Shown: in pieces, positions 8,895-54,880 of the stretch
Numbering within the stretch: position 1 is the first letter of the stretch
How the letters are laid out: every line of letters begins with the position of its first letter
Notes under the pieces: model-generated
Told to the model about the DNA's origin: nothing
Seen by the model: the letters and a program-made list of their open reading frames with translations, nothing else
Databases searched by the model: none
Assembly: GCF_009455635.1 (NCBI RefSeq)
Contig: NZ_QPER01000002.1
Location: 2,604,001 to 2,668,000 of the forward strand
Length of the DNA stretch: 64,000 nt
Source: Paraburkholderia agricolaris
Lineage (GTDB): Bacteria > Pseudomonadota > Gammaproteobacteria > Burkholderiales > Burkholderiaceae
Direction: 5' to 3'
Translations under genes and position numbers: made by a program

Positions 8895-8913
8895 CATCGT
8901 CTTTTCAGACTAC
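8895..8913 (-). promoter_or_regulatory. Island motif, copy 1 (upstream of the tesD operon)
   Basis: Minus-strand reading GTAGTC-N6-GACGATG, one mismatch to the consensus CTAGTC-N6-GACGATG shared by nine sites. Its orientation points to the hydrolase at 8797 rather than the plus-strand SDR at 8973. Confidence 0.65.
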
Positions 8914-8972
8914 GAGGCAGCGCCGCATTTCTCCTACCATCGGGCCCACATGGACAGACGGAGACAGCGGCA

Positions 8973-9785
8973 ATGACAGGGTTCGATTTCAGCGGCAAGG
9001 TGGTGCTGGTGACGGGTGGCACCAAGGGAATAGGCGCGGCCATCGCGCAGGCGTTTCAGGCGGCGGGCGCAACGGTCTACATATGCGGACGCACACCACC
9101 CGCAAGCACGGCTGCGGGCGTGCCTGAGAACGCCCCACGTTTCATCGCCGCGGACGTACGCGATATCGACACCATCGACGCCATGCTCGCGCGGATCGAA
9201 CGCGAAACGGGCCGGCTCGACGTGCTCGTGAACAACGCGGGCGGTGCGCCGTTCGCGCTCGCCGCGCAGGCCTCCCCGCGCTTTACCGAAGCCGTCATCC
9301 GCCTGAACCTGCTGGCGCCGCTGCACCTCGCGCAACGAGCGAATGCGCTGATGCAGCAGCAAGCGGAAGGCGGCGTCCTGCTGTTCATCGGCAGTGTGAG
9401 CGGTTTGCGGCCCTCTCCGGGAACCGCAGCCTACGGTGCGGCGAAAGCGGGTTTGCTGAATGCAGTGCGCTCGCTCGCAGTGGAGTGGGCGCCCAAGGTT
9501 CGCGTGTGCGCGGTCAGCCCGAGTCTCGTCGAAACAGAAGCCGCCACGAGCGGCCACACGGGTTCCTCCGCGGCGGATGGCGCGCCCGCTCTCGCCAGCA
9601 TCGCCGCGACGATTCCCGCCGGCCGTCTCGCGAAACCCGGCGATGTCGCATCCGCGTGCCTGTTCCTCGCCTCGCCGCACGCCGCATATGCGTCGGGCAG
9701 CAACCTGATTCTCGAAGGCGGCGGCGAAGTGCCCGCCTTTCTCGCCGCCACCGATCTGCACAAGGCGTTCGCCACTCACTCATAG
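8973..9785 (+). CDS. SDR of the HIP-degradation type (IpdF/Rv3549c-like)
   Basis: 270-residue short-chain dehydrogenase. TGGTKGIG at 15-22, NNAGG near 90, and the YGAAKAG catalytic Tyr/Lys around 154-158 are visible. Stretches such as NNAGGAPFALAA, LNLLAPLHLAQ and VEWAPKVRV resemble the SDRs controlled by KstR2 in mycobacteria, which act on hydroxylated HIP-CoA (IpdF oxidises the 5-hydroxyl). I start at ATG 8973, where homology begins; the upstream in-frame extension lies in the regulatory region. It runs divergently from the tesD operon. Confidence 0.7.
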   Translation: MTGFDFSGKVVLVTGGTKGIGAAIAQAFQAAGATVYICGRTPPASTAAGVPENAPRFIAADVRDIDTIDAMLARIERETGRLDVLVNNAGGAPFALAAQASPRFTEAVIRLNLLAPLHLAQRANALMQQQAEGGVLLFIGSVSGLRPSPGTAAYGAAKAGLLNAVRSLAVEWAPKVRVCAVSPSLVETEAATSGHTGSSAADGAPALASIAATIPAGRLAKPGDVASACLFLASPHAAYASGSNLILEGGGEVPAFLAATDLHKAFATHS

Positions 9786-9827
9786 ACGCATTCACGCGCG
9801 CCCACCTCGCGTCCCTGGGGCAAGCGA

Positions 9828-9846
9828 CTAGTCCGTTTTGACGATT
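9828..9846 (+). promoter_or_regulatory. Island motif, copy 2 (upstream of the DUF1302 gene)
   Basis: CTAGTC-N6-GACGATT, one mismatch in the last base, 69 bases before the DUF1302 start. Confidence 0.7.
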
Positions 9847-9914
9847 CTCGCGCCGCACGTGCCCCCTAACCTCTGATCACAACAAATTTCAGACGTGACC
9901 ACAGAGGAGACAGG

Positions 9915-11504
9915 ATGCAGATCAACGGAACACAGGCGCGCGCACCAGCAATGCGCGCAATGTGCGCGGCATGCAGACTCGCCGTGCTGGCAGCGGCGTC
10001 GGCGGCAACCATGACGACCTTCGCCACTCCCGCCTACGCGGGCGACACCGTCAATCTCGGCGCGGACACCACGCTCGACTACACCTTCACGCTCGGCTAC
10101 GGCCTCGGAATGCGCACCCGCTCGCCGAGTGGCAATCTGCTCACGCCGGCGAACATCAACGGTGACGACGGCGACCGCAACTTCGCGAAGAACAAGCTGA
10201 TCGAGAACCAGGTGAGCCTGCTGGGCGAGGTGAACCTCAAGCACGACGACTGGGGGGTCTTCGTGCGGGCCAATGTGTTCTACGATCAGGCTTACCAGCA
10301 CCCGAACAGCAACAACGCACCCTACACCGTCAACCACAGCGGCGCGTACAACCAGTTCACCAGCGACGCAAGCTACTTTGCCGGCGGCTATCCGCAGTTG
10401 CTCGCGGCCTATGCGTACGACACCATCCACCTCGGCAACACGAGTCTGAACGTCAAGGTCGGCGATCAGGTCGTCGCATGGGGCGAGAGCGTGTTCTTTC
10501 CGAACATCGCGGGCGCCCAGGGGCCTTCCAATGCCACCGCGTCGTATGTGGCCGGTGCGGAGGTCAAAGATATCCTGCTGCCGGTGCCGCAGATCTCGAC
10601 GCAATGGCAACTCGCGCCGAACTTCAGCCTGCTCGGCTACTACCAGTTCGCGTTCGAGCCTAACAAGCTGGTGCCGCCCGGCGGCTACTGGAGCTACTCG
10701 GACGTCGTCGGCCCCGGCGCGCAATACATCATCGGCCCAGGCGGCATGCAGATTCCGCGCGGCAACGACATCCGCCCGAACGGCGACGATCAGTGGGGTG
10801 TGGGCGCACGCTGGCGCGTCTTCGGCGACACCGAACTCGGTGCGTACTACCTGCACTACAACGACATGAACCCGAGTGTCGTGACGACGTACTTCCCGAC
10901 ACTGCAGTACCAGGAAAAGTACTTCGACCACATCAAGCTCACCGGCCTGAGCTTCTCGACCGATCTGAACGGCGTGAACGTCGCGGGTGAAACGTCGTAC
11001 CGCCAAGGCGCCGCGGTGCTCGTGAACACCCCCACGGGAGCTCAGGCGACGCGCGGCGACGTCTGGCAGTCGAATCTCTCGGCGATCTATTCGATCGGAC
11101 CGACCTTCCTTGCCGCCTCGCAAACGCTGGTGGGCGAAATCTCGTATGTGCACGCCGGCAACATCACGCCGGTCATGGGCTCGACGACGCTCACCAACAC
11201 GCGCAACTCCGCGGCCTTCGAGGTGGCATGGACGCTCAGCTACAAGAACGTCTTCAGCGGCTGGGACGTCGACGTACCCATCACCTATGCCGATGACTTC
11301 ACCGGCCAATCCGCGCTAAACGGCGCGCTCGGTTCGCTGACCGGCGTGGGCGACCACCGCGTGACAGTCGGTGTGAACTTCACGCGTCTGAGCAACCTGA
11401 AACTCGGGATCGTGTACGCGAAATTCCTCGGCACGCCTGACCCGAACAATCGCCCGCTCGCCGATCGCGACTACGTGCTCGCCACCGCCACTTACTCGTT
11501 CTGA
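9915..11504 (+). CDS. DUF1302 family outer-membrane protein
   Basis: 529-residue exported protein. A long signal peptide ends near residue 42 (ATPAYAGD). The mature part is rich in alternating aromatic strands and ends in a C-terminal phenylalanine (ATATYSF), as expected for an outer-membrane beta barrel. DUF1302 proteins regularly travel with DUF1329 partners, RND pumps and YCF48-like proteins in gene clusters for hydrophobic substrates, all four of which occur in this window. A role in bringing steroids across the outer membrane is inferred, not proven. GGAG ribosome site and island motif lie upstream. Confidence 0.82.
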   Translation: MQINGTQARAPAMRAMCAACRLAVLAAASAATMTTFATPAYAGDTVNLGADTTLDYTFTLGYGLGMRTRSPSGNLLTPANINGDDGDRNFAKNKLIENQVSLLGEVNLKHDDWGVFVRANVFYDQAYQHPNSNNAPYTVNHSGAYNQFTSDASYFAGGYPQLLAAYAYDTIHLGNTSLNVKVGDQVVAWGESVFFPNIAGAQGPSNATASYVAGAEVKDILLPVPQISTQWQLAPNFSLLGYYQFAFEPNKLVPPGGYWSYSDVVGPGAQYIIGPGGMQIPRGNDIRPNGDDQWGVGARWRVFGDTELGAYYLHYNDMNPSVVTTYFPTLQYQEKYFDHIKLTGLSFSTDLNGVNVAGETSYRQGAAVLVNTPTGAQATRGDVWQSNLSAIYSIGPTFLAASQTLVGEISYVHAGNITPVMGSTTLTNTRNSAAFEVAWTLSYKNVFSGWDVDVPITYADDFTGQSALNGALGSLTGVGDHRVTVGVNFTRLSNLKLGIVYAKFLGTPDPNNRPLADRDYVLATATYSF

Positions 11505-11609
11505 TGCTGCACAGCGCCCCGCGTATTGCGCGTATCGCAGGCTTTGGGCGCTTTGCGGCAAGCATCACCCTTTGAATCAGCCGTCTTTTTACTGCAAGAG
11601 GATTTGGTC

Positions 11610-13001
11610 ATGAGTCGAATTTTCAATCCCGCATTGCGTGTCTGCGTGTTCGCGGCAGGCGCCGCGCTCGCCGTCACACTGGGTGCCCCATCGTTTGCCA
11701 AAACCAGCCCGGAAGATCTCGCCAAACTCGAAGGCCCGCTCACGCCGATGGGCGCAGAGCGCGCAGGCAACGCCGACGGCACGATCCCCGCGTGGAGCGG
11801 CAAATGGTTCGGCACGCCACCGGGCGTCGACTATAAGCCGGGCCAGCGCTTCCCCGATCCGTATGCGAACGAGAAACCGCTCTTCGTGATCACCGCGCAG
11901 AACATGCAGCAGTACGAAGCGCGTCTCACCGACGGCGAAAAAGCGCTGCTCAAGAAGTATCCCGACAGCTTCAAGATCCCGGTCTACCCGAGCCATCGCG
12001 ATTTCAGCTATGGCGACGCCGTGTACAAGGACATTCGCCTGTACTCGCCCAACACCACGATGACGAAAGACCAGAACGGCCTGAAGGATTTTCCGCCGGT
12101 CACGCCGTTCCCTGTGCCGAAAAACGGCGTCGAGGCGATGTGGAATCTGCGCTTCGCGTCCGCGGTCGAAGGCGAAACCGCGACCTACGACCAGGCTGTG
12201 GTCTACCCCGACGGCAATATCGCGTGGGGCAAGGTGCAGTACGCGATTTACGGACCGCGCAGCGCGGACCATTTCGATCCGAAGAATCCGTTGAACGCGA
12301 AGAGCTTCTTCCGCCAGACCACCATGCTGCCGCTCTCCGATCGCGGCACGATCATCACCGGCTACGAAATGTGGGACCAGGAAGGCTCCGACACCCGCCG
12401 CACATGGTCGTATAACCCCGGTACGCGGCGCGTACGCCAGGCGCCCGAGTTCGGCTTCGACCAGCCCGAAGGACCGGGTGGCTTTCGCACCGTCGACGAC
12501 GACCGCCTCTTCAACGGTTCGGGCGAGCGTTACGACTGGAAGATCCTCGGCAAGCGCGAAGTGTATGTGCCGTACGACAACTACAAGCTGATGGACCCGT
12601 CGATCAAATACACCGATCTGCTGACCAAGGGCCATGAGAACACGCAGTACATGCGCTTCGAACTGCATCGCGTGTGGGTGTTGCAGGCTACGCTCAAGTC
12701 CGGCTATCGCCATCAATACGCGAAACGGGTGCTGTATCTCGACGAAGACACCTGGAACGCAGTCGCCGCCGACAACTACGACGCACGCGGCACGCTGTGG
12801 CGCACCAACCTCGCCCCGACGCTCTACGCGTACGACGCCAAATCGTTCTATTCGACCGCCGTGTTCTATCACGATCTGATCTCGGGTGCTTATTACGCGG
12901 ACCGTCTTTCGAATCAGGAACCGATGCCGGTGCTCACACGCGGCTCGCAACTGACCGAAGCGTACTTCTCGCCGGATGCGATTCGCGGCGCGGGCAACTG
13001 A
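11610..13001 (+). CDS. DUF1329 family periplasmic/outer-membrane protein
   Basis: 463-residue protein with a signal peptide cleaved near residue 30 (GAPSFAKT). The mature start DLAKLEGPLTPMGAERAGNADGTIPAWSG is the family hallmark, with further conserved W/Y-rich segments to the end. DUF1329 is thought to have a LolA/LolB-like lipid-carrying fold, which would suit passage of steroid or other hydrophobic ligands from the DUF1302 barrel; this is inference from co-occurrence. ATG 11610 follows AGAGGA. It shares the transcript of DUF1302 (105-base gap) and is followed by a terminator. Confidence 0.82.
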   Translation: MSRIFNPALRVCVFAAGAALAVTLGAPSFAKTSPEDLAKLEGPLTPMGAERAGNADGTIPAWSGKWFGTPPGVDYKPGQRFPDPYANEKPLFVITAQNMQQYEARLTDGEKALLKKYPDSFKIPVYPSHRDFSYGDAVYKDIRLYSPNTTMTKDQNGLKDFPPVTPFPVPKNGVEAMWNLRFASAVEGETATYDQAVVYPDGNIAWGKVQYAIYGPRSADHFDPKNPLNAKSFFRQTTMLPLSDRGTIITGYEMWDQEGSDTRRTWSYNPGTRRVRQAPEFGFDQPEGPGGFRTVDDDRLFNGSGERYDWKILGKREVYVPYDNYKLMDPSIKYTDLLTKGHENTQYMRFELHRVWVLQATLKSGYRHQYAKRVLYLDEDTWNAVAADNYDARGTLWRTNLAPTLYAYDAKSFYSTAVFYHDLISGAYYADRLSNQEPMPVLTRGSQLTEAYFSPDAIRGAGN

Positions 13002-13028
13002 TTTCGTCGCCTCTCTAACAAAACCACG

Positions 13029-13068
13029 GCCGGGGACGGATTCAGGTCCAGCCCCGGCGCTTTTTTCT
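13029..13068 (+). terminator. Terminator after the DUF1302-DUF1329 unit
   Basis: GCCGGGG (13029-13035) pairs with CCCCGGC (13052-13058), followed by GCTTTTTTCTTT. It separates the uptake pair from tesE, only 18 bases before that gene's start. Confidence 0.8.
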
Positions 13069-14828: not shown

Positions 14829-14837
14829 GGAGCTCCC

Positions 14838-16343: not shown

Positions 16344-17466
<1,123 letters not shown>

Positions 17467-17796: not shown

Positions 17797-18873
17797 TCAC
17801 TCTTCAAACACATGCCGCAAGGCCACCCTCCCCGCCCCCTCCCGAACCTTGATCTCCACGACCTTTCTCGCCGTACTCGAAGGCCGCACATCCGCTGCAT
17901 CGAGATAAAACTGCGAGTACCAGTCGCGCATCTGATACAGCGGACCATCACCCTCGCACAACAGCGGATTGTCAATCCGCGTCTTCGTATCCCAGATCGC
18001 GACGTCCTCATAAAACGCAGCCTGAGCCTGCTTCGAATAAGCACGCGCAATCTCCATGTTCTGCTCGTCGGATAAACCCGGCACCTTCTTCACCATCACG
18101 CCGTAACGCAATTCGAAGCTGTTCATATCGACCGGTACATGGCAGTTCAGCAGAATCGAATGGATCGGATGACCACCACTTTTACCCGTCATTTCCGTGA
18201 TGTGATATGCCGGACCAAAGTAAGTGGACAGCGCGATCAGTTCGTCGTCACCCAGACGCTCGCTGCGGCCAACAAGCAATTGCGTTGCCTTATGCCCTTC
18301 GAACAGATTCGCGAAATAATCGATCGGCGCGCCGTGCACAGTAGCGAAGTGGGCCATGTCGGAGATGTTGTCGACCAGCTCGCGGCAGTTCGTGTCGATC
18401 TTCATCAGATCCACAACCCAATCGGACCACTCGTCGGAAAAACATGCGTCGATACGGGGAATCGCAACGTCTTCGCCCGGCGGATTGCCTTCGGGGTCAT
18501 GCCAGATGAACAGCAGCTGGTTCTGTTCGCAAGTCTGCCAGGTGCCGATCCTGGCCTTCGGCGGAATCCGCTTGCAGTACGGAATCGACTGGCAGTTGCC
18601 TTCGCCGTCCCACTGCCAGCCGTGAAACGGACACACCAGCGTGTCGCCGTCCACACGGCCAGTGCTCAGATCACCACCCATGTGCGGGCAGTAGCCATCG
18701 ACCACGTTCACCTTCCCCTGTGAATCCATGAACGCGGCAAGACGTTGGCCAAAAATGTTCAGCGTGTGCGGCTTGCCATCCTTGTATTCGCTGGCAAGAC
18801 CAAGACAGTGCCAGCCGCGTGCATATCGCTGCACCAGCGGCTGCGCTTCAATTCTGTAGGGACGTGCGGACAT
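17797..18873 (-). CDS. kshA: 3-ketosteroid 9alpha-hydroxylase oxygenase KshA
   Basis: 358-residue Rieske oxygenase that hydroxylates C9 of androst-1,4-diene-3,17-dione; together with delta1-dehydrogenation this breaks ring B. The 2Fe-2S cluster ligands are Cys62-x-His64 and Cys81-xx-His84; mononuclear iron ligands are His175 and His180 in NISDMAHFATVHGAP and probably Asp290. HVPVDMNSFELRYGVMVKK is typical of KshA. GGAGGAG ribosome site. Electrons should come from KshB at 39677-40825. Its last 200 coding bases are G/T-rich, mirroring tesG across the repeat. Island motif lies 122 bases upstream. Confidence 0.92.
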   Translation of the reverse strand: MSARPYRIEAQPLVQRYARGWHCLGLASEYKDGKPHTLNIFGQRLAAFMDSQGKVNVVDGYCPHMGGDLSTGRVDGDTLVCPFHGWQWDGEGNCQSIPYCKRIPPKARIGTWQTCEQNQLLFIWHDPEGNPPGEDVAIPRIDACFSDEWSDWVVDLMKIDTNCRELVDNISDMAHFATVHGAPIDYFANLFEGHKATQLLVGRSERLGDDELIALSTYFGPAYHITEMTGKSGGHPIHSILLNCHVPVDMNSFELRYGVMVKKVPGLSDEQNMEIARAYSKQAQAAFYEDVAIWDTKTRIDNPLLCEGDGPLYQMRDWYSQFYLDAADVRPSSTARKVVEIKVREGAGRVALRHVFEE

Positions 18874-18994
18874 CTCTTATCTCCTCCAATGGAAAAGACG
18901 GCGCTTCTGAATAGCCGCCGTCATCAGTGCTTCTGCAGAGCGCGCGCAGATTTTCGTGCTCTCGCCTGACGATAAGCGCGACGCACTCCGCCTT

Positions 18995-19013
18995 CATCGT
19001 CCCGATGGACTAG
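18995..19013 (-). promoter_or_regulatory. Island motif, copy 3 (upstream of kshA)
   Basis: Minus-strand reading CTAGTC-N6-GACGATG, a perfect match, 122 bases before the kshA start and after the end of the RND gene. Confidence 0.75.
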
Positions 19014-24586: not shown

Positions 24587-25390
24587 TCACGCGTGCTGAC
24601 TGCTGACCGACAGCACTTCGCCAGTCATATACGACGCGTAGTCGCTTGCCAGAAAGACCATCACGTTCGCCACCTCCCACACTTCGGCAGCGCGTCCGAA
24701 TGCTTCACGCGATGCCAGTTGATCGAGCAGGTCAGCCGAAGCCGACTTCTTCAGAAAATCGTGCAGTGCAATGCTCGGCGCCACCGCGTTGATACGCACG
24801 CCGTACGGCGCAGCCTCGAGCGCGGCGCAGCGCGTCAGCGCCATCACGCCGGCCTTCGCTGCCGCGTAATGCGCCTGTTCCGCCTGCGCCCGCCAGCCGA
24901 GCACCGATGCGTTGTTCACGATCACGCCCCGGCCTCGCTGCTGCATGTGCGGCAGGATTGCCCGTGTCATGCGGAAGGTGCCGGTGAGGCTAATGTCGAT
25001 CACCCGCGACCATTCGGCATCGTCCATTTCGACGATGCGACGCGCGCCACCGAGTCCGGCGTTGTTGATCAGCACATCGACGCCTTGCAGCCGGTCTTCG
25101 GCATCCGCCACCAGCGTGCGTACGTCCTGTTCCACCGAAACGTTGCACAAGCGTCCGTAAATCGCCTGTAAGCCGGTTTCGGCGCGCAAGGTGTCGACCG
25201 CCTGCTCAAGACGCCGCTCGTGGATGTCGGAAATGAAAAGCGCGCGGCAACCTTCTTCGGCGCAGCGTTTGGCGGCGGCGAAGCCGATGCCCGCACCGGC
25301 AGCCGCCGTAATCAGCACGGATTTACCCGCCAGCAGTTGATGGCCCGGCACATAGGCAGGCGCGGTACGCACCGTTTGGAATTCGTTCAT
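24587..25390 (-). CDS. SDR of the KstR2-regulon type (Rv3548c-like)
   Basis: 267-residue short-chain dehydrogenase with the unusual glycine motif TAAAGAGIGFA (28-38), NNAGLGG, and VIVNNASVLGWRAQ...HYAAAKAGVMALTRCAALEA holding the catalytic Ser/Tyr/Lys. This pattern, including LLDQLASREAFGRAAEVWEVA, resembles Rv3548c of the mycobacterial HIP catabolism regulon. It probably oxidises a hydroxyacyl-CoA in C/D-ring breakdown. Its ATG lies inside the ATGA overlap with the upstream acyl-CoA dehydrogenase. Confidence 0.78.
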   Translation of the reverse strand: MNEFQTVRTAPAYVPGHQLLAGKSVLITAAAGAGIGFAAAKRCAEEGCRALFISDIHERRLEQAVDTLRAETGLQAIYGRLCNVSVEQDVRTLVADAEDRLQGVDVLINNAGLGGARRIVEMDDAEWSRVIDISLTGTFRMTRAILPHMQQRGRGVIVNNASVLGWRAQAEQAHYAAAKAGVMALTRCAALEAAPYGVRINAVAPSIALHDFLKKSASADLLDQLASREAFGRAAEVWEVANVMVFLASDYASYMTGEVLSVSSQHA

Positions 25391-36912: not shown

Positions 36913-37809
36913 CTAACGGAATCCAACGCTGAAATCGTGGCCCCACAGGCTCACGCGGGTCGCCTCGTAGACGTTGTGCTGCGTCCAGTCGACCGTCAGG
37001 CCGCCGTAGCCATATTCCAGATCGAAGCCACCTGGGGTTTTCATGTAGAACGAGACCATGTGGTCGTTGCAATGACGACCGAGCGTGGCAGAGAGCTTCA
37101 CGCTATGTGCGGCGACGCGGTCGAGCGCGCGGCCGACCTCGTCCATCGAGTCCACTTCAGCCATCACATGGATGCAGCCGGACGGCACGGCGAGATCCAT
37201 GATCGCGAGGCTGTGATGCCGCGCGTTCCTGCAATGCAGGAAGTGGATGCGCTTTTCGGGTTCGGCGGGGTCGTCGGTAAAGCGCACGCGGAAGATGTCG
37301 GACAGTTCGAAACCGAGTACGTCGCGCAGGAATGTGTCGGTCGCGTCGAATTGCGGAGCGGGCAGCACGGCATGGCCGAGGCCCATCGCGCCGGTGACAA
37401 AACCGGGCACGCCGAGCGGCGAAACGAAGCGGCGGAAATCGGCGCGCACGCCCCAGAAAAACTCATGCCGGTTGCCGGACGGATCGGTGCACCACACCAT
37501 TGCCTGCACGCGGCGCAGCGCGGCTTCCTGCGCGCTGGCGCGGATCGGCTCCACGCCGGCCAGCTCCAGGCTGCGAATGGCGTCGTCGAACGCGGCCGCA
37601 TCGGCCAGCTCCCAACCCGACGCGAAGTAGCGATCGGCTTCGCCGGGTACGATCAGGTAGCGGAAATCGCGCTCGTCCATCTTCACGTACAGCGCGCCAT
37701 CCGTTGCGTCCTGCGCCTGCATGCCCAGCACGTTTTCCGCGTAGCCGCGCCATGTGTCGACATCCGCCGACTGCACGACGACGTAGCCTAAAGCCCGTAC
37801 ATCGATCAT
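36913..37809 (-). CDS. tesB: Extradiol dioxygenase TesB/HsaC
   Basis: 298-residue type I extradiol dioxygenase that cleaves the catecholic ring A (3,4-dihydroxy-9,10-secosteroid) between C4 and C5. Iron ligands His146 (GLGHAVL), His214 (CIHVM) and Glu265 (DLEYG) and active-site His199, His246 and Tyr256 match the BphC numbering closely. Product goes to the hydrolase at 7904-8797. A perfect island motif lies 62 bases upstream of the ATG. Confidence 0.92.
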   Translation of the reverse strand: MIDVRALGYVVVQSADVDTWRGYAENVLGMQAQDATDGALYVKMDERDFRYLIVPGEADRYFASGWELADAAAFDDAIRSLELAGVEPIRASAQEAALRRVQAMVWCTDPSGNRHEFFWGVRADFRRFVSPLGVPGFVTGAMGLGHAVLPAPQFDATDTFLRDVLGFELSDIFRVRFTDDPAEPEKRIHFLHCRNARHHSLAIMDLAVPSGCIHVMAEVDSMDEVGRALDRVAAHSVKLSATLGRHCNDHMVSFYMKTPGGFDLEYGYGGLTVDWTQHNVYEATRVSLWGHDFSVGFR

Positions 37810-37870
37810 CTCCGACTCCTCCAGAAGCTGTTGTTGTCAGGCTTATTCTGGCGCTCCGGAGGGTGGCCAA

Positions 37871-37889
37871 CATCGTCTGTTGGGACTAG
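37871..37889 (-). promoter_or_regulatory. Island motif, copy 4 (upstream of tesB)
   Basis: Minus-strand CTAGTC-N6-GACGATG, perfect match, 62 bases before the tesB start. Its TAG (37888-37886) is also the stop codon of the FadD3-like gene, so the operator overlaps the end of the upstream coding region. Confidence 0.78.
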
Positions 37890-45640: not shown

Positions 45641-46846
45641 TCAGATGAAGAAATCCGTGTTCGGACGCCCGAGCATCACCGCGCCGAGATTCTGGCCGAA
45701 ACGATCGAGGTTGTTCGCGTAGTGCGCGCGTGCCGCATGCAGATCGAGAAAGCGCCGCACCAACGGATTGCGGTTATAAATGCCGTTACCGCCCGCGTAG
45801 CGCAGCAGCGCGTTGGCAGCTTGCGCGCAGCGTTCGGCCACCTGCGCGGATTGATAGCGGAAATGCACGCGCCGTTCGATCGATACCGCCGCGCCGCCAT
45901 TGACCGCCGCGAGCAGCTCGGCGAAGTTGCGCATCAGCAGCACTTTCATTTCGTCAATAGCGACGGCTGCATTGGCGCAGGCGGTTTGCGCGCCGGTATC
46001 GTCGGTGGTTTTCGCGCCGCTGTTGGCGCTCACGCGTGTCGCCGCGTAAGACGTGAAGTCGTCCAGCGCGCCTTGCAATGCGCCGATGCACGCAGTGCAC
46101 ACGGCCCGCACGAAAATCTGCGCAAACGGCAACTGGAACAGCGGTGCGTCGTTCACTGCAAGACCGGGGCTCGTGCCCATCATGCCGTCGATCGCCTTGT
46201 GGGTGCGATAGTCCGGCACGAACGCATCGTTCACCACGATGTCGTGGCTGCCGGTTGCGCGCAAGCCCAGCACGTCCCAATCCTGTTCGATCGTGTAATC
46301 GCTTTTCGGCAGCAGGAAAGTGCGGTATTCCGGCGGCTCGCCCTCTTTCGCCGGCGGCACCAGCGCGCCGAGAAAGACCCACTCGCACAGTTCGCTGCCG
46401 CTCGAAAACTTCCAGTGCCCGGACAGCCGGAAGCCGCCCTCAACCGGCGTCACACGTCCCACCGGCATATAGGTCGATGCGATCAGCGTGGCGGGATCCT
46501 TACCCCACACGTCCTGCTGCGCCCGTTCGTCGAACAGCGCCAGTTGCCAGTTGTGCACGCCGATCACGCCGTACACCCACGCAGTCGACATGCAACCGCG
46601 CGCCACCGCCATCTGAATCTCGAAGAAGGTCTGCGGATCGAGTTCGTAGCCGCCATAACGCTTCGGCTGAAGCACCTTGAAAAAACCCGCGGCCTGAAAA
46701 TCGGCCAGCGTTTCGGCGGGAATCCGGCCATTCGCCTCGGCCTGCGCGGCGCGCCCGGCAAGCACCGGTGCGAGCGCTTCGGCGCGGGCGATCAGTTCGG
46801 TTGCAAGGGCGTTCGAATCGTTGTCGCGATGCACGGCTGTCTCCAT
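45641..46846 (-). CDS. hsaA: 3-HSA 4-monooxygenase oxygenase component HsaA (TesA2)
   Basis: 401-residue flavin-dependent hydroxylase with acyl-CoA dehydrogenase fold. It adds a hydroxyl at C4 of the phenolic 9,10-secosteroid, using reduced flavin from HsaB. GGYELDPQTFFEIQMAVARGCMSTAWVYGVIGVHNWQLALF, GHWKFSSGSELCEWVFLGA, GLRATGSHDIVV and the C-terminal HxxARAHYANNLDRFGQNLGAVMLG agree with HsaA. ATG 46846 preferred over TTG 46858. A perfect island motif lies 69 bases upstream. Confidence 0.9.
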   Translation of the reverse strand: METAVHRDNDSNALATELIARAEALAPVLAGRAAQAEANGRIPAETLADFQAAGFFKVLQPKRYGGYELDPQTFFEIQMAVARGCMSTAWVYGVIGVHNWQLALFDERAQQDVWGKDPATLIASTYMPVGRVTPVEGGFRLSGHWKFSSGSELCEWVFLGALVPPAKEGEPPEYRTFLLPKSDYTIEQDWDVLGLRATGSHDIVVNDAFVPDYRTHKAIDGMMGTSPGLAVNDAPLFQLPFAQIFVRAVCTACIGALQGALDDFTSYAATRVSANSGAKTTDDTGAQTACANAAVAIDEMKVLLMRNFAELLAAVNGGAAVSIERRVHFRYQSAQVAERCAQAANALLRYAGGNGIYNRNPLVRRFLDLHAARAHYANNLDRFGQNLGAVMLGRPNTDFFI

Positions 46847-46914
46847 GATGGCGCGCAAGATGGATATCGCGCCTGTTTTGTTGGGTTCATCTTCGAGCGC
46901 CAGCCGCGGCGTCG

Positions 46915-46933
46915 CATCGTCTGAAGAGACTAG
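46915..46933 (-). promoter_or_regulatory. Island motif, copy 5 (upstream of hsaA)
   Basis: Minus-strand CTAGTC-N6-GACGATG, perfect match, 69 bases before the hsaA start; in the 120-base gap between hsaA and the luciferase-like gene. Confidence 0.78.
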
Positions 46934-46967: not shown

Positions 46968-48122
46968 TCAGGCAGCAACCTGTGCCTGCTGTTTCTCGCT
47001 CTTCAGCCGGTTGAAGTACGGAATCACGTGTTCGCCGATATTGCGGATCGTTTCGAGTTGCGCTTCCTGAGACACCGTGCCCATCTGGCAGAGGAACAGC
47101 ACTTCATCCACACCTGCTTCCATCAGACGGCCCACATAGCCGATGCAATCGTCGACGGTGCCGTAAGCGTGATTCGGGTTCATCATCGACAGTGCCGGAT
47201 CGCTGAAATCGACCACCACCTCTTCCGACGCGAAACGCGAACGGATCACCATCTCGCCGGTATTGCCCTTCACGAGGTCGTCGCCCCAGCTATCCGGGTT
47301 CGGACGCTCGCCGCCGGTGTACCAGTACGCCAGTGACTCCATGAAATAGCGCTGACCGCGAATGCCGATCTTGCGAGCCTGCTGGCCGTCGCTCAGCACC
47401 ACGGTCGGGCACAGTGCGGCCAGATGCTGCGTCGGACGGAAACCAACCTGGTCCTCGGCCTTGCGGGTCGCCCAGGCTTCGCGATACAGCGCGTTTTTCT
47501 TCGCGACTTCATCGGGGCCGCCGAAACCGAGCACCAGCGCACCGAGACCACGCTGGCCGGCGCGCAGCAGGCCGTCGTTGTTGGTGCATGCCATGTACAT
47601 GGGCGGATGCGGGTCCTGAAACGGTTTCGGATGAATCGGCCGTTTAGGAATCTTGATGTATTTACCGTCATGCTCGATCTCGTCCTGCACGAACATCTTC
47701 GGCACCAGGTACATCGATTCGTCGATCATCGGTTGCAGCTCGGCGAGGTCGTAGCCGAACGCGCCCGCTTCCTGCTGGCTGCCGCCTTTGCCGACACCGA
47801 AATGCACGCGGCCGCCCGACAGAATGTCGAGCATGGCCACGCGTTCGGCCACCTTGATCGGATGATTCATCGCGGGCGGCAGGCAGATCACGCCGTGGCC
47901 GAGGCCGATACGGGTCGTGCGGCCGGCCAGATAAGCGAGAAAGGTTTCCGGTGCGCTCATATGCGCGTAGTTCGTCAGCGAGGTGTGTTCGACGCACCAG
48001 ACAGTATCGAAACCCATCTGTTCGGCGAGCAACGCCTGCTCGACGGTCTCCTTGAATACCCGGTGATCGCCTTCCCGCGAAGCGTCCGTGGTCTGGGCTT
48101 CGTAAATCAGAGAAAACTTCAT
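46968..48122 (-). CDS. LLM-class (luciferase-like) flavin-dependent monooxygenase
   Basis: 384-residue TIM-barrel flavin monooxygenase of the bacterial luciferase superfamily. LLAEQMGFDTVWCVEHT and GVICLPPAMNHPIKVAERVAMLDILSGGRVHFGVGKG are typical. No specific substrate can be named; such proteins are found near some steroid clusters and could hydroxylate or open an intermediate. ATG 48122 is preceded by GGAG nine bases upstream; an earlier in-frame ATG at 48137 lacks that. Its promoter region holds an island motif 122 bases upstream, placing it in the same predicted regulon. Confidence 0.82.
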   Translation of the reverse strand: MKFSLIYEAQTTDASREGDHRVFKETVEQALLAEQMGFDTVWCVEHTSLTNYAHMSAPETFLAYLAGRTTRIGLGHGVICLPPAMNHPIKVAERVAMLDILSGGRVHFGVGKGGSQQEAGAFGYDLAELQPMIDESMYLVPKMFVQDEIEHDGKYIKIPKRPIHPKPFQDPHPPMYMACTNNDGLLRAGQRGLGALVLGFGGPDEVAKKNALYREAWATRKAEDQVGFRPTQHLAALCPTVVLSDGQQARKIGIRGQRYFMESLAYWYTGGERPNPDSWGDDLVKGNTGEMVIRSRFASEEVVVDFSDPALSMMNPNHAYGTVDDCIGYVGRLMEAGVDEVLFLCQMGTVSQEAQLETIRNIGEHVIPYFNRLKSEKQQAQVAA

Positions 48123-48243
48123 TGCGTGCGTCTCCATGAATTTTGGACTGTGCTGAAACGGGCGGTCCGCTCCCGACCCACCGATTCCTACGATGATCGT
48201 GACGGTCCACGGAATGAAGTTTCAGTTCGCGCGTGCGGCGCGG

Positions 48244-48262
48244 CATCGTCTATTTGGATTAA
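48244..48262 (-). promoter_or_regulatory. Island motif, copy 6 (upstream of the LLM monooxygenase)
   Basis: Minus-strand TTAATC-N6-GACGATG: the proximal half is perfect, the distal half has two mismatches to CTAGTC. 122 bases before the start of the monooxygenase. The 354-base gap 48123-48476 otherwise holds only the divergent copy 7 and A/T-rich promoter DNA. Confidence 0.6.
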
Positions 48263-48386
48263 CGGTGCGTGCTTTGCCGTAGAAGCTTTGATCGAAGGCG
48301 TGTTTGCCGTGTGTTTTGCGGTTTTTTTGCCGCGTTTTTTCCATATTCCCAGCCGCAAGTTTCGCGATGCTTTTTTCATAGCCGGG

Positions 48387-48405
48387 CTAGTCCGATTGGA
48401 CCTCG
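48387..48405 (+). promoter_or_regulatory. Island motif, copy 7 (upstream of the VOC gene)
   Basis: CTAGTC-N6-GACCTCG: distal half perfect, proximal half keeps GAC only. 72 bases before the VOC start. Confidence 0.55.
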
Positions 48406-48476
48406 TACAGCGTGCATCCGTGACGCTACGATCAGGCCGCTAGACAACGCTGCTCAACTGATGGGAGTGCAATGCA

Positions 48477-48827
48477 ATGAAGGCTTCGATGATGCTGTAC
48501 CCGGTCGAGACGATCGATGCGGCGCTGCCGCTCTTTGTCGACGGGCTAGGTTTGACGGTGAAGTTTCGTGACGGCGAGCGCTATTGCGCGCTCGACGGTG
48601 GCGCGCTGAGCGTCGCGCTGGTGGCAGGCGAGGAACGGATCGTCGAACGCGCGGCGCTGGTGTTTCGCGTGGACGAAACCGACGACCTGTACGCAGCGAT
48701 GGCGCGGGTGGTCGCGGCGGGTGCGTCAGTGCGCGTGCCGGTGCAGCAAGGGCCGCACGAATGGCGTGCGGTGCTGGAGGATAAGAACGGCGCGTTACTG
48801 GTGTTGTCGCAGAAGCGCGCGGTTTAA
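48477..48827 (+). CDS. VOC (glyoxalase/bleomycin resistance) superfamily protein
   Basis: 116-residue single-domain VOC protein. MLYPVETIDAALPLFVDGLGLTVKFRDGERYCALDGGALSVALVAGEE gives the first beta-alpha-beta-beta-beta module and VRVPVQQGPHEWRAVLEDKNGALLVLSQK the second. Potential metal ligands are His in GPHEW and Glu nearby; activity is unknown, with isomerase, epimerase or binding roles possible. GGGAG ribosome site nine bases upstream. An island motif precedes it, so a steroid-linked role is likely but unproven. Confidence 0.78.
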   Translation: MKASMMLYPVETIDAALPLFVDGLGLTVKFRDGERYCALDGGALSVALVAGEERIVERAALVFRVDETDDLYAAMARVVAAGASVRVPVQQGPHEWRAVLEDKNGALLVLSQKRAV

Positions 48828-48837
48828 AGCCGTGGAG

Positions 48838-48870
48838 CGTGTGCCACGCCTGACAAAGGCGCGGCACACG
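48838..48870. terminator. Terminator hairpin between VOC and LuxR genes
   Basis: CGTGTGCC-A-CGCC pairs with GGCG-C-GGCACACG around TGACAAA, between two convergent genes; a TTGTCT tail follows on the plus strand. Confidence 0.65.
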
Positions 48871-48885
48871 TTGTCTCAACCGGCT

Positions 48886-50067
48886 TCAGCCAAGCGGCAC
48901 CACACTGCCCAGCAGAATGCGTACGAGCGTGGCCTGGCGCGTGACGCCCGTCTTCGAGAAGATGGCCCGCAGATGGGCCCGCGCGGTGTTCTTGCTGATA
49001 CCCAATTCGTCGGCGGCTTCTTCCAGCGTCAACCCGTTGGTCAGCAGCAAGGCAAGCGAGGTCTCCGCGGGCGTGAGGTCGAACAGCTTGCGTACGATCT
49101 CCTGCGAGCCCTGCGATTTGCGATCGGGATCGCGCAGAAACAGCACCGTTGCCGGGCGGCGTTTGTTGTCCTCGGACCAGTCCGAGAGCGGAATCGTGCG
49201 CACCAGCACGCCGAGTTTCGGCTTGTCGCAACCACGCGTGATCGGCATGGCTTCGACAATCGGCGCGGCGGTGCCGAAGTGCCCCATCAGCGCATGACGC
49301 ACGAGACGTTGCAGATTCCGGTTCTCCTGCGCATCGGTCGCTTCGACGTTGCCATGCACGATACGCAAGCCGTTGCCCTGAACAAGAATCTCGTCGGCCA
49401 CGCTATTGGTGCGCATGATCGCACCGCTCTCGTCGAGTGTCACGGTGCCCACCAGCATCCGGTCGATCGCGCTCGCATACAGCGTACGCTCCGACTCCAC
49501 GATATCGAGCCGCGAATGCAATTCGACCGCACGTCGCAAATGCGGCAGCAACAACGCGCAAAACGCCTTGTCGCGCGCGGAAAAATGCTTCGAAGCGTGG
49601 CTGCGGCACACGCGAAACCGGCATTCCACGCCGGACTCCGTACGCAGATCGGCGCCCATGATGTAGCGAATATCGGCCGGCTTCAGAAACTGTTTGTAGA
49701 GTTCGCTGGTGAGCCAGCCCGTGTCGCCGAATACTTCGTCGACAGTGACCACGCGATCCGCCGGCAAACCGACGAACGGATCGAGCGAATAGTAGTAGTT
49801 GTTGTATGACGCTTCACCCGGCACACCCGAGCCCATTTCGGATGCGTGCACCATCAGGCCGCGCCGGTCGCTCGAGGGCGAACGCAGAATCAGGGTGGCA
49901 TAGCTCGCGCCCAGCGAGGTGCGGATCAATTCGAGCGCGCCGGCCCACGGCGTGCTTTCCAGCGCCCCTTGATAAATGCGCGCGGTCAGCTCGCTGAACT
50001 GCGCGACGCTCACCTCGGCCAGTTCACTCATGGCCTGGCCCTCTTCAGGGGCCCATTTTGTCTCCAT
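48886..50067 (-). CDS. LuxR-type regulator, TesR/TeiR-like candidate for steroid control
   Basis: 393-residue protein: a 320-residue N-terminal sensory part with no clear named domain by eye, and a C-terminal LuxR helix-turn-helix (FDLTPAETSLALLLTNGLTLEEAADELGISKNTARAHLRAIFSKTGV). Size and layout fit TesR/TeiR, the LuxR-type activator of testosterone degradation in Comamonas, but I cannot align them here. ATG 50067 follows GGAG at good spacing. It lies in the middle of the steroid island and its own upstream region has a near-palindromic island motif 122 bases away, suggesting autoregulation. Confidence 0.78.
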   Translation of the reverse strand: METKWAPEEGQAMSELAEVSVAQFSELTARIYQGALESTPWAGALELIRTSLGASYATLILRSPSSDRRGLMVHASEMGSGVPGEASYNNYYYSLDPFVGLPADRVVTVDEVFGDTGWLTSELYKQFLKPADIRYIMGADLRTESGVECRFRVCRSHASKHFSARDKAFCALLLPHLRRAVELHSRLDIVESERTLYASAIDRMLVGTVTLDESGAIMRTNSVADEILVQGNGLRIVHGNVEATDAQENRNLQRLVRHALMGHFGTAAPIVEAMPITRGCDKPKLGVLVRTIPLSDWSEDNKRRPATVLFLRDPDRKSQGSQEIVRKLFDLTPAETSLALLLTNGLTLEEAADELGISKNTARAHLRAIFSKTGVTRQATLVRILLGSVVPLG

Positions 50068-50188
50068 CAACACTCTCCGTCCTCCATGCGACTTTGCATC
50101 GCGACGCCAAGCTTAAGGGCCGATCTGCTTGCTGGCATCGGGGGAAGTACTTAGCTGACGAAAGTTTCGCTGAGCGTGCGAACGAACT

Positions 50189-50207
50189 CTCGTCCAATCG
50201 GACGATG
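50189..50207 (+). promoter_or_regulatory. Island motif, copy 8 (between the LuxR regulator and the hydrolase operon)
   Basis: CTCGTC-N6-GACGATG, with CAATCG as spacer, making an almost complete palindrome CGTCCAATCGGACG. 145 bases before the hydrolase on the plus strand and 122 bases before the LuxR gene on the minus strand. The intergenic span 50068-50351 shows no gene. Confidence 0.7.
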
Positions 50208-50351
50208 CTCCCTTGAAGCCGCCGCGCTTCAATGCATTCAGTGTTGCGGCGTGCGCGCCGAATGCCCTGATTTGCAGCGCGATTCGGGTCCGGCACGGCC
50301 GTATCGCCTATACCCGGTATAGCCGCTTTCATCACATTCTCAGGAGACCCG

Positions 50352-51314
50352 ATGGCGCTCGATCCTCAGGCGCAGGCCGTGCTCGCCGCTTTCGCCGGCA
50401 TGCCCCCACTCGATTTCGCGCAACTCACCGTGCCCGCATACCGTGCGATGCTCGCCGCGGGCGGCGGTCTTGCACCGGGCGACTCCGTCGCGGCAGAAGA
50501 AGATCTGACGATTCCGACCGCCAGCGGCCCGATTGCCGCGCGCCTCTACCGGCCTGCGCTGGAAAGTGCCGATGAGCATGGCAACAGCAATACCCTGCTG
50601 CCGCTTACCGTCTTCTTTCACGGCGGTGGCTTCATTTCTTGCGGGCTCGATACCCACGCAAACATTTGCCGTTGCCTCGCGCAACGCGCGCGAACGGTCG
50701 TGCTATCGGTCGATTACCGGCTCGCGCCCGAAGCACGCTTTCCGGCCGCCGCGCTCGACGCGTGCGACGCCGTGCGCTGGGCGGCGTCCAATTCAGGTGA
50801 TTTGCGCGTGCGGCCCGGCGCGCTTGCCGTAGCGGGCGACAGCGCCGGCGGCAATCTGGCGGCAGTAGTCGCGCAACAGTTGCGTTATAGCGCGGTGAAT
50901 ATCGCGCATCAGGTACTGTTCTATCCCGTGGTGGATTGCGCCACCGAGCATCCTTCATACGAATCGATGGGCGACGGGTATCTGCTGACGGCGGACATGA
51001 TGCGCTGGTTCAAAAGCGAATATTTCGCACCGGACGCCGATCGCGCCGATCCCCTCGCCAGTCCGCTCGCCGTTGCCGATCTCGCGGGTACAGCCAGCGC
51101 CACCATCATTAGCGCCGAGTACGACCCATTGCGCGACGAGGTCGAGCACTATGCAGCGCGTCTCGCGCAAGCGGGTGTGCTTACAACCCATCTGCGCTGG
51201 CCGGGACAGATGCACGGCTTCGCCAGTCTGCTCGGTGCGCTCGACGCGGCCGACCCGGCACTCACGATCGCAGCGCGCGCCTTGCGCCATGCGCTGCACG
51301 TCCAGAACACCTGA
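50352..51314 (+). CDS. Alpha/beta hydrolase, hormone-sensitive-lipase type
   Basis: 320-residue esterase of the HSL family. Oxyanion motif HGGGF (90-94), nucleophile Ser164 in GDSAGG, Asp258 in EYDPLRD and His288 in GQMHGF. No signal peptide, so cytoplasmic. It may hydrolyse steroid esters or lactones at the entry of the pathway; that is inferred from the island motif upstream and its operon with a hydratase, RibBX and SDR. CAGGAGA ribosome site. Confidence 0.85.
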   Translation: MALDPQAQAVLAAFAGMPPLDFAQLTVPAYRAMLAAGGGLAPGDSVAAEEDLTIPTASGPIAARLYRPALESADEHGNSNTLLPLTVFFHGGGFISCGLDTHANICRCLAQRARTVVLSVDYRLAPEARFPAAALDACDAVRWAASNSGDLRVRPGALAVAGDSAGGNLAAVVAQQLRYSAVNIAHQVLFYPVVDCATEHPSYESMGDGYLLTADMMRWFKSEYFAPDADRADPLASPLAVADLAGTASATIISAEYDPLRDEVEHYAARLAQAGVLTTHLRWPGQMHGFASLLGALDAADPALTIAARALRHALHVQNT

Positions 51315-51334
51315 CTCCGTTCACCAGAAAAGAC

Positions 51335-52138: not shown

Positions 52139-52215
52139 GCGTTTTTTCTTCGCTTTTTTAAACGCGGCAACCGCAATAACAACAGCAGCAACAGCAGTAG
52201 CACAGGGATAAACCC

Positions 52216-53436
52216 ATGAAACTGGCCACTACCGACGAAATCGTCGCCGAGCTGAGAGCCGGCCGCATGATCATTCTGGTCGACGAGGAAGATCGCGAGA
52301 ATGAAGGCGATCTGCTGATCGCAGCCGACCACGTCACGCCCGAAGCGATCAACTTCATGGCGCGCTTTGGCCGCGGCCTTGTCTGCCTGACTCTGAGCGC
52401 CGAGCACTGCGCGCGCCTGAAGCTTCCGCCGATGGCGGAACAGAACGGCACGCAGTACGGCACCGCGTTCACGGTCAGCATCGAGGCGGCGCACGGCGTC
52501 ACCACCGGCATCTCCGCTGCCGACCGCGCGCACACGATCCGCACGGCGATTCAGCCGGACGTGCGCGCCGAGCATCTGGTGCAACCGGGCCATGTATTTC
52601 CGATCGCGGCGCGTCAGGGCGGCGTGCTGGTGCGTGCCGGACATACCGAGGCGGGTTGCGATCTCACAGCATTGGCAGGCCTGACGCCCGCAGCGGTGAT
52701 CTGCGAAATCATGAACGACGACGGTACCATGTCGCGTCTGCCGCAACTGATCGAATTCGCCGAACACCATGGCCTGAAAATCGGCACGATTGCCGATCTG
52801 ATCCACTATCGCAGTACGCACGAGTCGCTCGTCGAACGTGTCGGCGAGAGACCGTTGCACACGCCGTGGGGACCGTTTCGCGCCATTCAGTATCGCGACA
52901 CCGTGCGTCAATCCACGCATCTGGCGTTGGTGCGCGGCACGCCAATGCCCCATGTGCCGGTGCTCACTCGCGTGCACGAATGCTTCTCGCTGCTCGACCT
53001 GCTCGATGCGGAACCCTCCGCGCATTCATGGCCGTTGCACGCGGCGCTGCAGAAAATCGATGCGGCGGGATGCGGCGTGGCGGTTCTGCTCGATTGCGAC
53101 ATGCGAACCGATGCCATGACCGGCAACAACAGCATGCCGGCGCGCAGGGACGGCAGACTCTCCGGGATTGGCTCGCAGATTTTGCGCGACCTCGGTGTGC
53201 GTCGATTGAATGTGTTGTCGAGTCCATTCAGGCTGCCGGCGCTGTCCGGGCACGAACTGGAAATCATGGCGTTCATTCCGCTTGGCGAAGCGGACCTGGA
53301 AAACCCGCACGCGTTCGACCGCATGTCTGGCGCGCCGAGGGCTGACGTGCCACTGAAACCCCCGGCTCTTCGATCCACCGCGGTGCTGCAGACAAGCGCT
53401 CAACCGGCATCGTACGAACTCGAAGCTTCTTCATGA
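52216..53436 (+). CDS. ribB: DHBP synthase fused to a degenerate GTP cyclohydrolase II domain (RibBX type)
   Basis: 406-residue two-domain protein. The N-terminal half is a complete 3,4-dihydroxy-2-butanone 4-phosphate synthase with DEEDRENEGDLLIAADHVT (about 25-43), GHVFPIAARQGG and HTEAGCDLTALAGL. The C-terminal half has the GTP cyclohydrolase II fold but where the zinc motif should follow RVHxEC it reads RVHECFSLLDLLDAEPS, and the later CDCG is absent, so it is probably inactive, as in RibBX proteins. Makes the four-carbon riboflavin precursor. Its place in a steroid operon may serve demand for FAD and FMN. Confidence 0.87.
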   Translation: MKLATTDEIVAELRAGRMIILVDEEDRENEGDLLIAADHVTPEAINFMARFGRGLVCLTLSAEHCARLKLPPMAEQNGTQYGTAFTVSIEAAHGVTTGISAADRAHTIRTAIQPDVRAEHLVQPGHVFPIAARQGGVLVRAGHTEAGCDLTALAGLTPAAVICEIMNDDGTMSRLPQLIEFAEHHGLKIGTIADLIHYRSTHESLVERVGERPLHTPWGPFRAIQYRDTVRQSTHLALVRGTPMPHVPVLTRVHECFSLLDLLDAEPSAHSWPLHAALQKIDAAGCGVAVLLDCDMRTDAMTGNNSMPARRDGRLSGIGSQILRDLGVRRLNVLSSPFRLPALSGHELEIMAFIPLGEADLENPHAFDRMSGAPRADVPLKPPALRSTAVLQTSAQPASYELEASS

Positions 53437-54314: not shown

Positions 54315-54334
54315 TACAGAACGCCGGTGCGGTC

Positions 54335-54365
54335 GGCACGGCGGTTCTGAATGCCCCGCCGTGCC
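54335..54365. terminator. Hairpin between convergent SDR and membrane-protein genes
   Basis: GGCACGGCGG (54335-54344) pairs perfectly with CCGCCGTGCC (54356-54365); an overlapping CAGAAC/GTTCTG pairing is an alternative fold. No T-run. Confidence 0.45.
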
Positions 54366-54405
54366 GTGCCACTTCGTGTCGTGTCGTGGCGTACGGTACG
54401 GGCGG

Positions 54406-54696
54406 CTAGAAACCGCTCACCACCATCGCATACACCAGCGCCGCACCGCCCACCGCGCCGAGGAAGGTGAAACACTGTTCGTCCGCACCCGAGCGGCGCG
54501 CCCAGATTCTTCCAGCCAGCGCGGCCAATCCGGTGATGCCCAGAAACAGCGACAGCGACGATCCGGCCGTGCACACCATGCCGGGAAACTCGTCGCTCCA
54601 GGCGCATGCGTAGAGCTGCCGCACGGATACGCCGACCACACCGATCGCCACCAGCAAACCGGCAACCAGTCCATCCCGCTGAACTCTGGATTTCAT
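54406..54696 (-). CDS. Small hydrophobic membrane protein of unknown function
   Basis: 96 residues from ATG 54696, which has GGGAGG eight bases upstream. Three hydrophobic segments are evident: VAGLLVAIGVVGVSVRQ, SSLSLFLGITGLAALAG and FLGAVGGAALVYAMVV. Two Cys lie near CAWSDEFPGMVC in the first loop and one more at EQCF. I recognise no family. It has its own copy of the island motif 166 bases upstream, so it is an uncharacterised member of the predicted steroid regulon. Confidence 0.72.
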   Translation of the reverse strand: MKSRVQRDGLVAGLLVAIGVVGVSVRQLYACAWSDEFPGMVCTAGSSLSLFLGITGLAALAGRIWARRSGADEQCFTFLGAVGGAALVYAMVVSGF

Positions 54697-54861
54697 CTGC
54701 ATTCCTCCCGCATCACACCCGTCCTCATCCTGCTTGTCCCCATCCCTATACGCGGCTCAAACGCCTGCCGCGCAGCTGTGCGCCTCGATACGACGGACAA
54801 AAAACCTCGTCGCGCCGCTCCCGGTTCATACCGTCATTGACGGCGATCGGAGGCATGCGGG

Positions 54862-54880
54862 CATCGTCCGGATGGACTAA
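54862..54880 (-). promoter_or_regulatory. Island motif, copy 9 (upstream of the 96-residue membrane protein)
   Basis: Minus-strand TTAGTC-N6-GACGATG, one mismatch. 166 bases before the membrane-protein start. The 370-base gap 54697-55066 holds no gene; this is its main feature. Confidence 0.68.

Follow-up and report, generated by a model that had tools for sequence, protein, structure and literature searches.

A fixed-spacing inverted repeat in a Paraburkholderia steroid gene cluster is a probable activator box of the LuxR-type regulator TesR

Introduction

Since 2004, TesR/TeiR has been reported as the switch for steroid degradation in Comamonas. We analysed a stretch of 64,000 nucleotides from Paraburkholderia agricolaris (hereafter the window; positions 2604001-2668000 of contig 2 in a genome of 8.72 Mb, G000), which contains a cluster of steroid-degradation-like genes together with a TesR-type regulator of the LuxR helix-turn-helix (HTH) kind. 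Nine copies of a short inverted repeat, called the box below, stand before genes of this cluster, and the box is very probably the site at which TesR, as a steroid-triggered dimer, activates these genes in a class II arrangement.

The cluster and its nine boxes

An initial annotation of the window had proposed nine copies of CTAGTC-N6-GACGATG, uniformly oriented, with conserved half-sites around a variable spacer, as the operator of a steroid regulon. All nine sites were confirmed in the sequence, and all nine boxes point to the next gene. Each is given here with its -10-like hexamer. The box GTAGTCTGAAAAGACGATG (8895-8913, minus strand; hexamer GATGAT, 8869-8874) lies before the tesD/hsaD-like gene, which encodes an HsaD/TesD-like hydrolase (7904-8797, minus strand) with HsaD as best family, at a score below the cut-off of that family. 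On the plus strand, CTAGTCCGTTTTGACGATT (9828-9846; TAACCT, 9867-9872) precedes a row consisting of a DUF1302 protein gene (9915-11504), an unnamed gene (11526-13001) and tesE-, tesF- and tesG-like genes. Two others are exact copies on the minus strand. One (18995-19013; TATCGT, 18969-18974) stands before the gene for a KshA-like Rieske oxygenase (17797-18873, minus strand; 42% to a gene of locus L126 annotated as 3-ketosteroid-9-alpha-monooxygenase), and the other (37871-37889; CAGAAT, 37845-37850) before an hsaC/tesB-like operon with an HsaC/TesB-like extradiol dioxygenase gene (36913-37809, minus strand; below the family cut-off).

Three further boxes are on the minus strand: an exact copy (46915-46933; GAAGAT, 46889-46894) before the hsaA-like/kstD-like operon, in which the HsaA-like monooxygenase gene occupies 45641-46858 (minus strand; below the family cut-off); TTAATCCAAATAGACGATG (48244-48262; GAAACT, 48218-48223) before the gene for an LLM-class flavin monooxygenase (46968-48137, minus strand); and a box at 54862-54880 (GTCAAT, 54836-54841) before the gene for a predicted membrane protein of 98 amino acids (54406-54702, minus strand), which has no NCBIfam or Pfam match. 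A degenerate box, CTAGTCCGATTGGACCTCG (48387-48405, plus strand; TACGAT, 48427-48432), stands before a VOC/glyoxalase-fold protein gene (48477-48827, plus strand). The remaining box (50189-50207, plus strand; TTCAAT, 50228-50233) is a perfect palindrome, located between tesR on the minus strand and a plus-strand row of genes for an alpha/beta hydrolase (Abhydrolase_3; 50352-51314), an enoyl-CoA hydratase, a RibB-like protein and an SDR protein.

Compared with CTAGTC-N6-GACGATG, the sites at 18995, 37871 and 46915 match exactly, those at 8895, 9828, 50189 and 54862 carry one mismatch, and those at 48244 and 48387 carry two and three, respectively. With up to three mismatches allowed, the window holds 31 matches, against 16.7 +/- 4.1 expected, and 0 of 100 shuffles reached 31; since about 17 matches per window arise by chance at this level, loose matches alone were given no weight. 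The three-mismatch class is weak by itself, and the site at 48387, in which the right arm is altered, was retained because it is conserved in relatives (it is kept in Paraburkholderia loci). Aligned, the sites form the inverted repeat TMGTCY-N4-RGACGA followed by TG, that is, TMGTCY-N4-RGACGATG. The six spacer bases are not free, their outer positions being mostly Y and R. GACGATG, the arm on the promoter side, hardly varies; the far arm takes the forms TAGTC, TCGTC and TAATC, and in relatives also TACTC and ATCATCC.

Promoter geometry

In all eight good sites (the nine without 48387), a -10-like hexamer starts exactly 20 bp downstream of the box, a feature that the initial annotation had missed. 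Among 101 offsets, offset 39 stood far above the rest in mean -10 score (3.38, with -0.38 for the runner-up), and none of 5000 shuffles matched it at any offset. At the 48387 site, TACGAT sits one base further off than the -10 of the other sites. When a -35 element was looked for at spacers of 16-18 in the eight sites, at most three of six bases matched TTGACA. Offset 39 was again the best in a pool of 40 distinct sites (1.48; next, -2.54) and for 18 of 21 listed sites from distant genera (1.75; next, -1.28; 0 of 5000 shuffles). Footprints of four promoters, with 6-16 non-redundant orthologues each, gave pairwise identities of 0.87-1.00 for the arms of the box, 0.65-0.84 for its centre, 0.53-0.64 for the 20-bp spacer and 0.71-1.00 for the -10 hexamer, as well as 0.45-0.71 for the ten bases before the box and 0.41-0.84 for the fifteen bases after the hexamer. 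The length of the spacer is conserved and its letters are not.

Start sites were predicted by assuming a start 7 bases after the -10. With the -10 at a fixed spacing, the centre of the repeat therefore lies at about -42.5 relative to the predicted start; the lux box is likewise centred at -42.5, according to the available text of PMC3376562. Because of this central position in promoters without a -35, the layout would be that of a class II activator rather than of a repressor operator or a leader element. The initial annotation was right in seeing a regulatory site, and its word operator is better replaced by activator box. Its placing of all sites in intergenic leaders does not hold, because the boxes precede the -10-like element and the predicted start, and the 37871 box runs into the TAG stop codon of the gene before it (end 37886). 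An Rfam scan of the window gave 0 matches at the gathering score.

Specificity within the genome

The bare pattern with up to two mismatches showed no enrichment over the whole genome (324 matches vs 382 in a reversed control); this list misses exact minus-strand matches seen in the strict scan and was not relied on. The strict form TMNTCYN5GACGATG gave 17 matches in the genome and 2 in the reversed control. Eight of the 17 fall within the 64-kb window, namely seven of the sites and one coding look-alike (25019), and the 9828 site misses the strict pattern by its last base. Among the nine strict matches outside the window, seven lie within long open frames showing coding bias. The composite of box and -10 was matched exactly 12 times in 8.7 Mb: eight matches are the good sites of the window, three are in long coding-biased frames elsewhere, and one (C2:1939026) is stem-loop-like. 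An equal density of the motif elsewhere in the genome, which the initial annotation had named as evidence against a regulon, was found for the loose pattern only; the strict pattern and the composite are both enriched in the cluster.

The reversed pattern underestimates the background in coding DNA (genomes lacking TesR have about 1.4 matches per Mb, the control few), and for this reason TesR-negative genomes are the better control. The look-alike noted above is palindromic with two mismatches (25018-25037) and lies inside the coding frame 24587-25390. An 18-mer of it is also present in G051, a genome of the same genus, on its cluster contig.

The regulator TesR

TesR (48886-50073, minus strand) has 395 amino acids. 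Its sequence and a structure model, the latter examined with VIA-align, suggest a LasR/GAF-like domain at about 20-190, a PAS-like domain at about 209-314 and the HTH at about 323-389; the HTH is of the GerE type, and no autoinducer-binding Pfam match was obtained. The closest named relatives, at 98-99% identity, are from Paraburkholderia. TeiR (P0122) is 39% identical and alignable over the whole protein, and the HTH region is nearly invariant among sequences that are 36-43% identical overall to the window TesR. Another genome, G209, encodes a regulator that shares 96% identity with TeiR of C. testosteroni (UniRef Q6URL0), and the G209 cluster is therefore of the Comamonas tes type. A Pfam search found no kinase domain in TesR or TeiR, and neither protein has a clear membrane helix, TeiR having one borderline window (1.65).

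The genome carries a second TesR copy, 74% identical, at C2:3199191-3200330 (L100:17192-18331, minus strand), beside DUF1329 and SDR genes. In Burkholderia, the second tesR copies (L071-L079 and L081) have no box before tesR, with a best score of 5.5.

Conservation in relatives and co-occurrence with TesR

Fifty-two loci (1.04 Mb in total), taken by TesR homology and mostly from Paraburkholderia and Burkholderia, with some from Ralstonia and Pseudoduganella, were searched with a matrix built from the eight good sites. This gave 206 matches of at least 10 bits, vs 37 in reversed sequence. For orthologue counts, six plasmid loci were added, and a site was scored when it had at least 10 bits and lay at most 300 bases upstream. 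Such a site was found upstream of hsaA in 27/29, of the LLM gene in 26/26, of the membrane protein gene in 10/10 and of the hydrolase gene in 35/38 orthologues; the reversed control of the last is high (10) because its site is palindromic. Smaller sets gave 3/4 for hsaC, 2/2 for DUF1302, 1/2 for hsaD and 2/2 for kshA (two C. necator plasmids with an identical site). The operon-internal kstD had a site upstream in 1/27 and an MMPL gene in 0/2.

The arrangement of box and -10 before steroid genes was seen in Burkholderia, Ralstonia, Caballeronia, a Vibrio plasmid and the Comamonas-type genome G209. The boxes of G209 stand before hsaA-kstD, a DUF1329 gene with DUF1302, tesB, an SDR pair and further genes, and their -10 lies at the usual distance or within one base of it; in G361, a box stands directly before the tesDEFG-like row. 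The Vibrio alfacsensis plasmid (regulator 39%, tblastn) carries one box ahead of an HsaA-like gene (52%), with further boxes before an electron-transfer gene and between enoyl-CoA hydratase and SDR genes, and a Sphingobium plasmid (regulator 36%) has CTAGTCTCTTCGGACGAAG before a gene annotated kshA. A lack of conservation upstream of orthologous steroid genes, which the initial annotation had named as evidence against a regulon, was thus not borne out: the box stands there across genera. It is not restricted to Burkholderiaceae and also occurs in the Comamonas-type genome, on the Vibrio plasmid and at one Sphingobium promoter.

Variant right arms (GGATGATG, GGGTGAT and GGACYATG) were noted in L065 (P. 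ginsengiterrae, TesR 74%) and in L123/L127 (Cupriavidus necator), several of them followed at about the usual distance by a -10-like hexamer. These variants suggest that box and regulator are drifting together.

Co-occurrence was assessed in two genome samples. In an order sample of 399 genomes, in which at most four candidates per genome were scored, TesR was called at E<=1e-30 and sites were counted with the exact pattern TAGTCYN4RGACGATG. Four genomes were TesR-positive, with five (G000), seven (G209), two (G361) and zero (G400) strict sites; the boxes of G400 are of the ATCRTCC kind, outside the exact pattern. Among the 395 TesR-negative genomes, one has two sites and 24 have one. At least two sites were thus present in 3/4 TesR-positive vs 1/395 TesR-negative genomes (Fisher p 1.5e-6), or in 2/3 vs 1/395 when the discovery genome is left out (p 1.1e-4). 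In a genus sample of 117 genomes, the 21 with TesR had 2.15 strict matches per Mb and the 96 without it 1.39 (Mann-Whitney p 1.5e-8); given 1.39 matches per Mb in the absence of TesR, most strict matches anywhere are background.

Other genes of the cluster

The RibB/RibA-type riboflavin gene (52216-53436) is part of the hydrolase row of the regulon and perhaps supplies flavin to the flavin monooxygenases. The LLM monooxygenase gene lies near the TesR-type regulator gene (46968-50073 together), and it adjoins the regulator on two Novosphingobium plasmids (L167, L169); LLM-type genes on Novosphingobium plasmids are discussed in connection with progesterone degradation in the text available from PMC12239570. 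The predicted 98-amino-acid membrane protein, with the box upstream of all ten orthologues examined, is a candidate new steroid gene product. Between the tesG-like and kshA-like genes there is an IS110-type transposase gene (16486-17466). At the cluster edge (3867-5964), an AraC gene (3867-4814) and a solo gene for a LuxR protein of the acyl-homoserine lactone (AHL) type (4918-5964) are divergent; the AraC match has an internal TAG in G098, G051 and G113.

Mechanism and alternative explanations

From the sequence, we infer TesR to be the protein that binds the box and activates the genes here. A steroid, or a product of its early breakdown, would switch TesR on; a TesR dimer would then bind TMGTCY-N4-RGACGATG, the inverted repeat whose centre lies at about -42.5 from the putative start sites, and would contact or recruit RNA polymerase as a class II activator at -10 promoters without a -35. 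The repeat itself, the 20-bp spacing, the lack of a -35, the cross-genus conservation and the co-occurrence with TesR are supported directly by the sequences. TesR was required for induction of tesB-tesR, tesA1-tesG and tesA2-ORF18 in Comamonas, as stated in the available part of PMC6895838, and boxes are found at genes of these groups (tesB, tesA, tesD-G) in the window (8895, 9828, 37871 and 46915) as well as elsewhere, at hsaA/kstD and tesB in G209 and at the tesD-G row in G361. A steroid regulon with the LuxR-type protein as its likely reader, as initially proposed, is supported by the concentration of the strict motif, the conservation at orthologues and the co-occurrence with TesR.

Several observations weigh against this mechanism. 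The region of the second TesR copy (C2:3199191) lacks a convincing box, and the target of that copy may have drifted. L069 and L082 (2/52 loci) are without any match of at least 10 bits, and a site was found upstream of tesR in just 30/58 loci (reversed control, 5) and of the VOC gene in 11/26; in addition, the orthologue counts are not independent, because many of the relatives are closely related. No box at up to one mismatch stands directly before the tesDEFG-like row of G209. The Novosphingobium plasmids pNL2, PP1Y Mpl and ES2-1 p1 (regulators 30-34%) have no convincing box: they gave 0, 3 and 2 matches of at least 8 bits, none with a good -10, and 4, 2 and 3 in the reversed controls. On pNL2 and ES2-1 p1, the LLM gene adjoins the regulator. 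Furthermore, the presence of TesR in the 52 loci is no independent evidence, because they were fetched by TesR, so that independent evidence for co-occurrence comes only from the genus and order samples, and in the order sample some TesR-negative genomes may be missed positives, as at most four candidates per genome were scored.

A further difficulty is that TeiR is portrayed as a polar steroid sensor of the kinase type in the parts of two reviews available to us (PMC6678751, PMC8399759); control by an indirect route would then be conceivable. TesR might then act upstream only, for instance as the sensor kinase proposed for TeiR, with another regulator binding the box, and two other regulators, the AHL-type LuxR and the AraC protein, were indeed found in the scan of window genes, which covered part of the open reading frames. 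We consider this unlikely: each of the two is absent (E<=1e-30) from 5/13 genomes (G209, G361, G400, G015 and G018), G209 and G361 nevertheless carry boxes, strict sites co-occur with TesR in both samples, and TesR and TeiR possess an HTH and, as mentioned above, no Pfam kinase domain or clear membrane helix. A polar-kinase role of TeiR may be allowed as an added layer, and the box explains control without a kinase. It is very unlikely that TesR is instead a repressor released from the box by steroids. Other steroid regulators, namely KstR and EdcR, are repressors, and a different LuxR-type repressor has been reported in C. testosteroni (available sections of PMC8700777); the box, however, is clear of the predicted -10 and start and occupies the -35 place in promoters without a -35, and, in the text available from PMC6895838, testosterone could not be used by a teiR deletion strain and induction depended on TesR.

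Less probable again is a promoter read by an alternative sigma factor, with the conserved block as its -35 element; this would account for the fixed spacing to the -10-like hexamer. The block is a two-armed inverted repeat of 16 bp with a sigma70-like -10, GACGAT (offset 12-17) lies 21 bp ahead of the -10 (offset 39), too far for a -35, and no sigma factor was among the window genes scanned, a scan of part of the open reading frames. Finally, the bare two-mismatch pattern is common in the genome and not above its control, as chance or a mobile-element repeat would predict; this origin is scarcely credible for the boxes, given that the cluster is enriched in strict and composite matches, that the flanks differ between sites and that the box is conserved across genera. 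The preferred reading is thus that of TesR as a class II activator on this box.

Relation to known systems and significance

The nearest known system is TesR/TeiR of C. testosteroni, which has 39% identity and a nearly identical HTH and is reported to regulate the corresponding steroid genes positively; the same box and -10 spacing stand before tes genes in G209, with its TesR of 96% identity to TeiR. TeiR has been described as a polar kinase, whereas the protein here, by its sequence and model, appears to combine an HTH with LasR/GAF-like and PAS-like parts and has no Pfam kinase domain. With the class II arrangement of LuxR and the lux box, TesR shares an inverted repeat of about 20 bp at -42.5 (here from a predicted start), the lack of a usable -35, a GerE-type HTH and perhaps, going by the model, an N-terminal domain of LasR/GAF-like fold, whereas the TesR box differs in sequence, an extra PAS-like part stands between the ligand-type domain and the HTH, no autoinducer-binding Pfam match is found and the regulon is one for steroids. 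KstR/KstR2 of actinobacteria are similar in that one type of regulator serves several promoters of steroid catabolism; they are TetR repressors in the sources available, in contrast to a LuxR-HTH protein at an apparent activator position. In the proteobacterium Caenibius tardaugens, promoters of a steroid (oestrogen) cluster under EdcR likewise carry a palindrome. According to the available part of PMC8700777, EdcR is a TetR-type repressor whose palindrome, TnnCnnTACnAnTnGTAnnGnnA, overlaps the -10, whereas the TesR box ends 20 bp before the -10 and is unlike the EdcR palindrome in sequence. Among the window genes scanned, again part of the open reading frames, there was no TetR-family regulator.

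In the portions of the literature covered by our search, no operator of TesR/TeiR was found; the original TeiR report lies outside that coverage and may contain an earlier description. The available text of PMC6895838 repeats the view that C. testosteroni alone has tesR-like genes. LuxR-type class II boxes are already known as a kind; what appears to be new is this particular box, together with its regulon and its spread. It is possible, at a little short of an even chance in our estimate, that the box is a widespread proteobacterial steroid response element: a soluble activator of the LasR/GAF-PAS-LuxR type would directly sense a steroid or a steroid-CoA intermediate, and one class II design, inherited or transferred with the cluster in Burkholderiales, Vibrio and sphingomonads, would replace the proposed polar-kinase cascade of TeiR.

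With the box defined and its promoter geometry fixed, direct activation becomes open to testing, and the promoter design could be used for steroid biosensors. The box also helps in reading the steroid regulon off other genomes, and in P. agricolaris it adds the LLM monooxygenase, the VOC protein, the hydrolase-ribB row and the 98-amino-acid membrane protein as candidate steroid genes.

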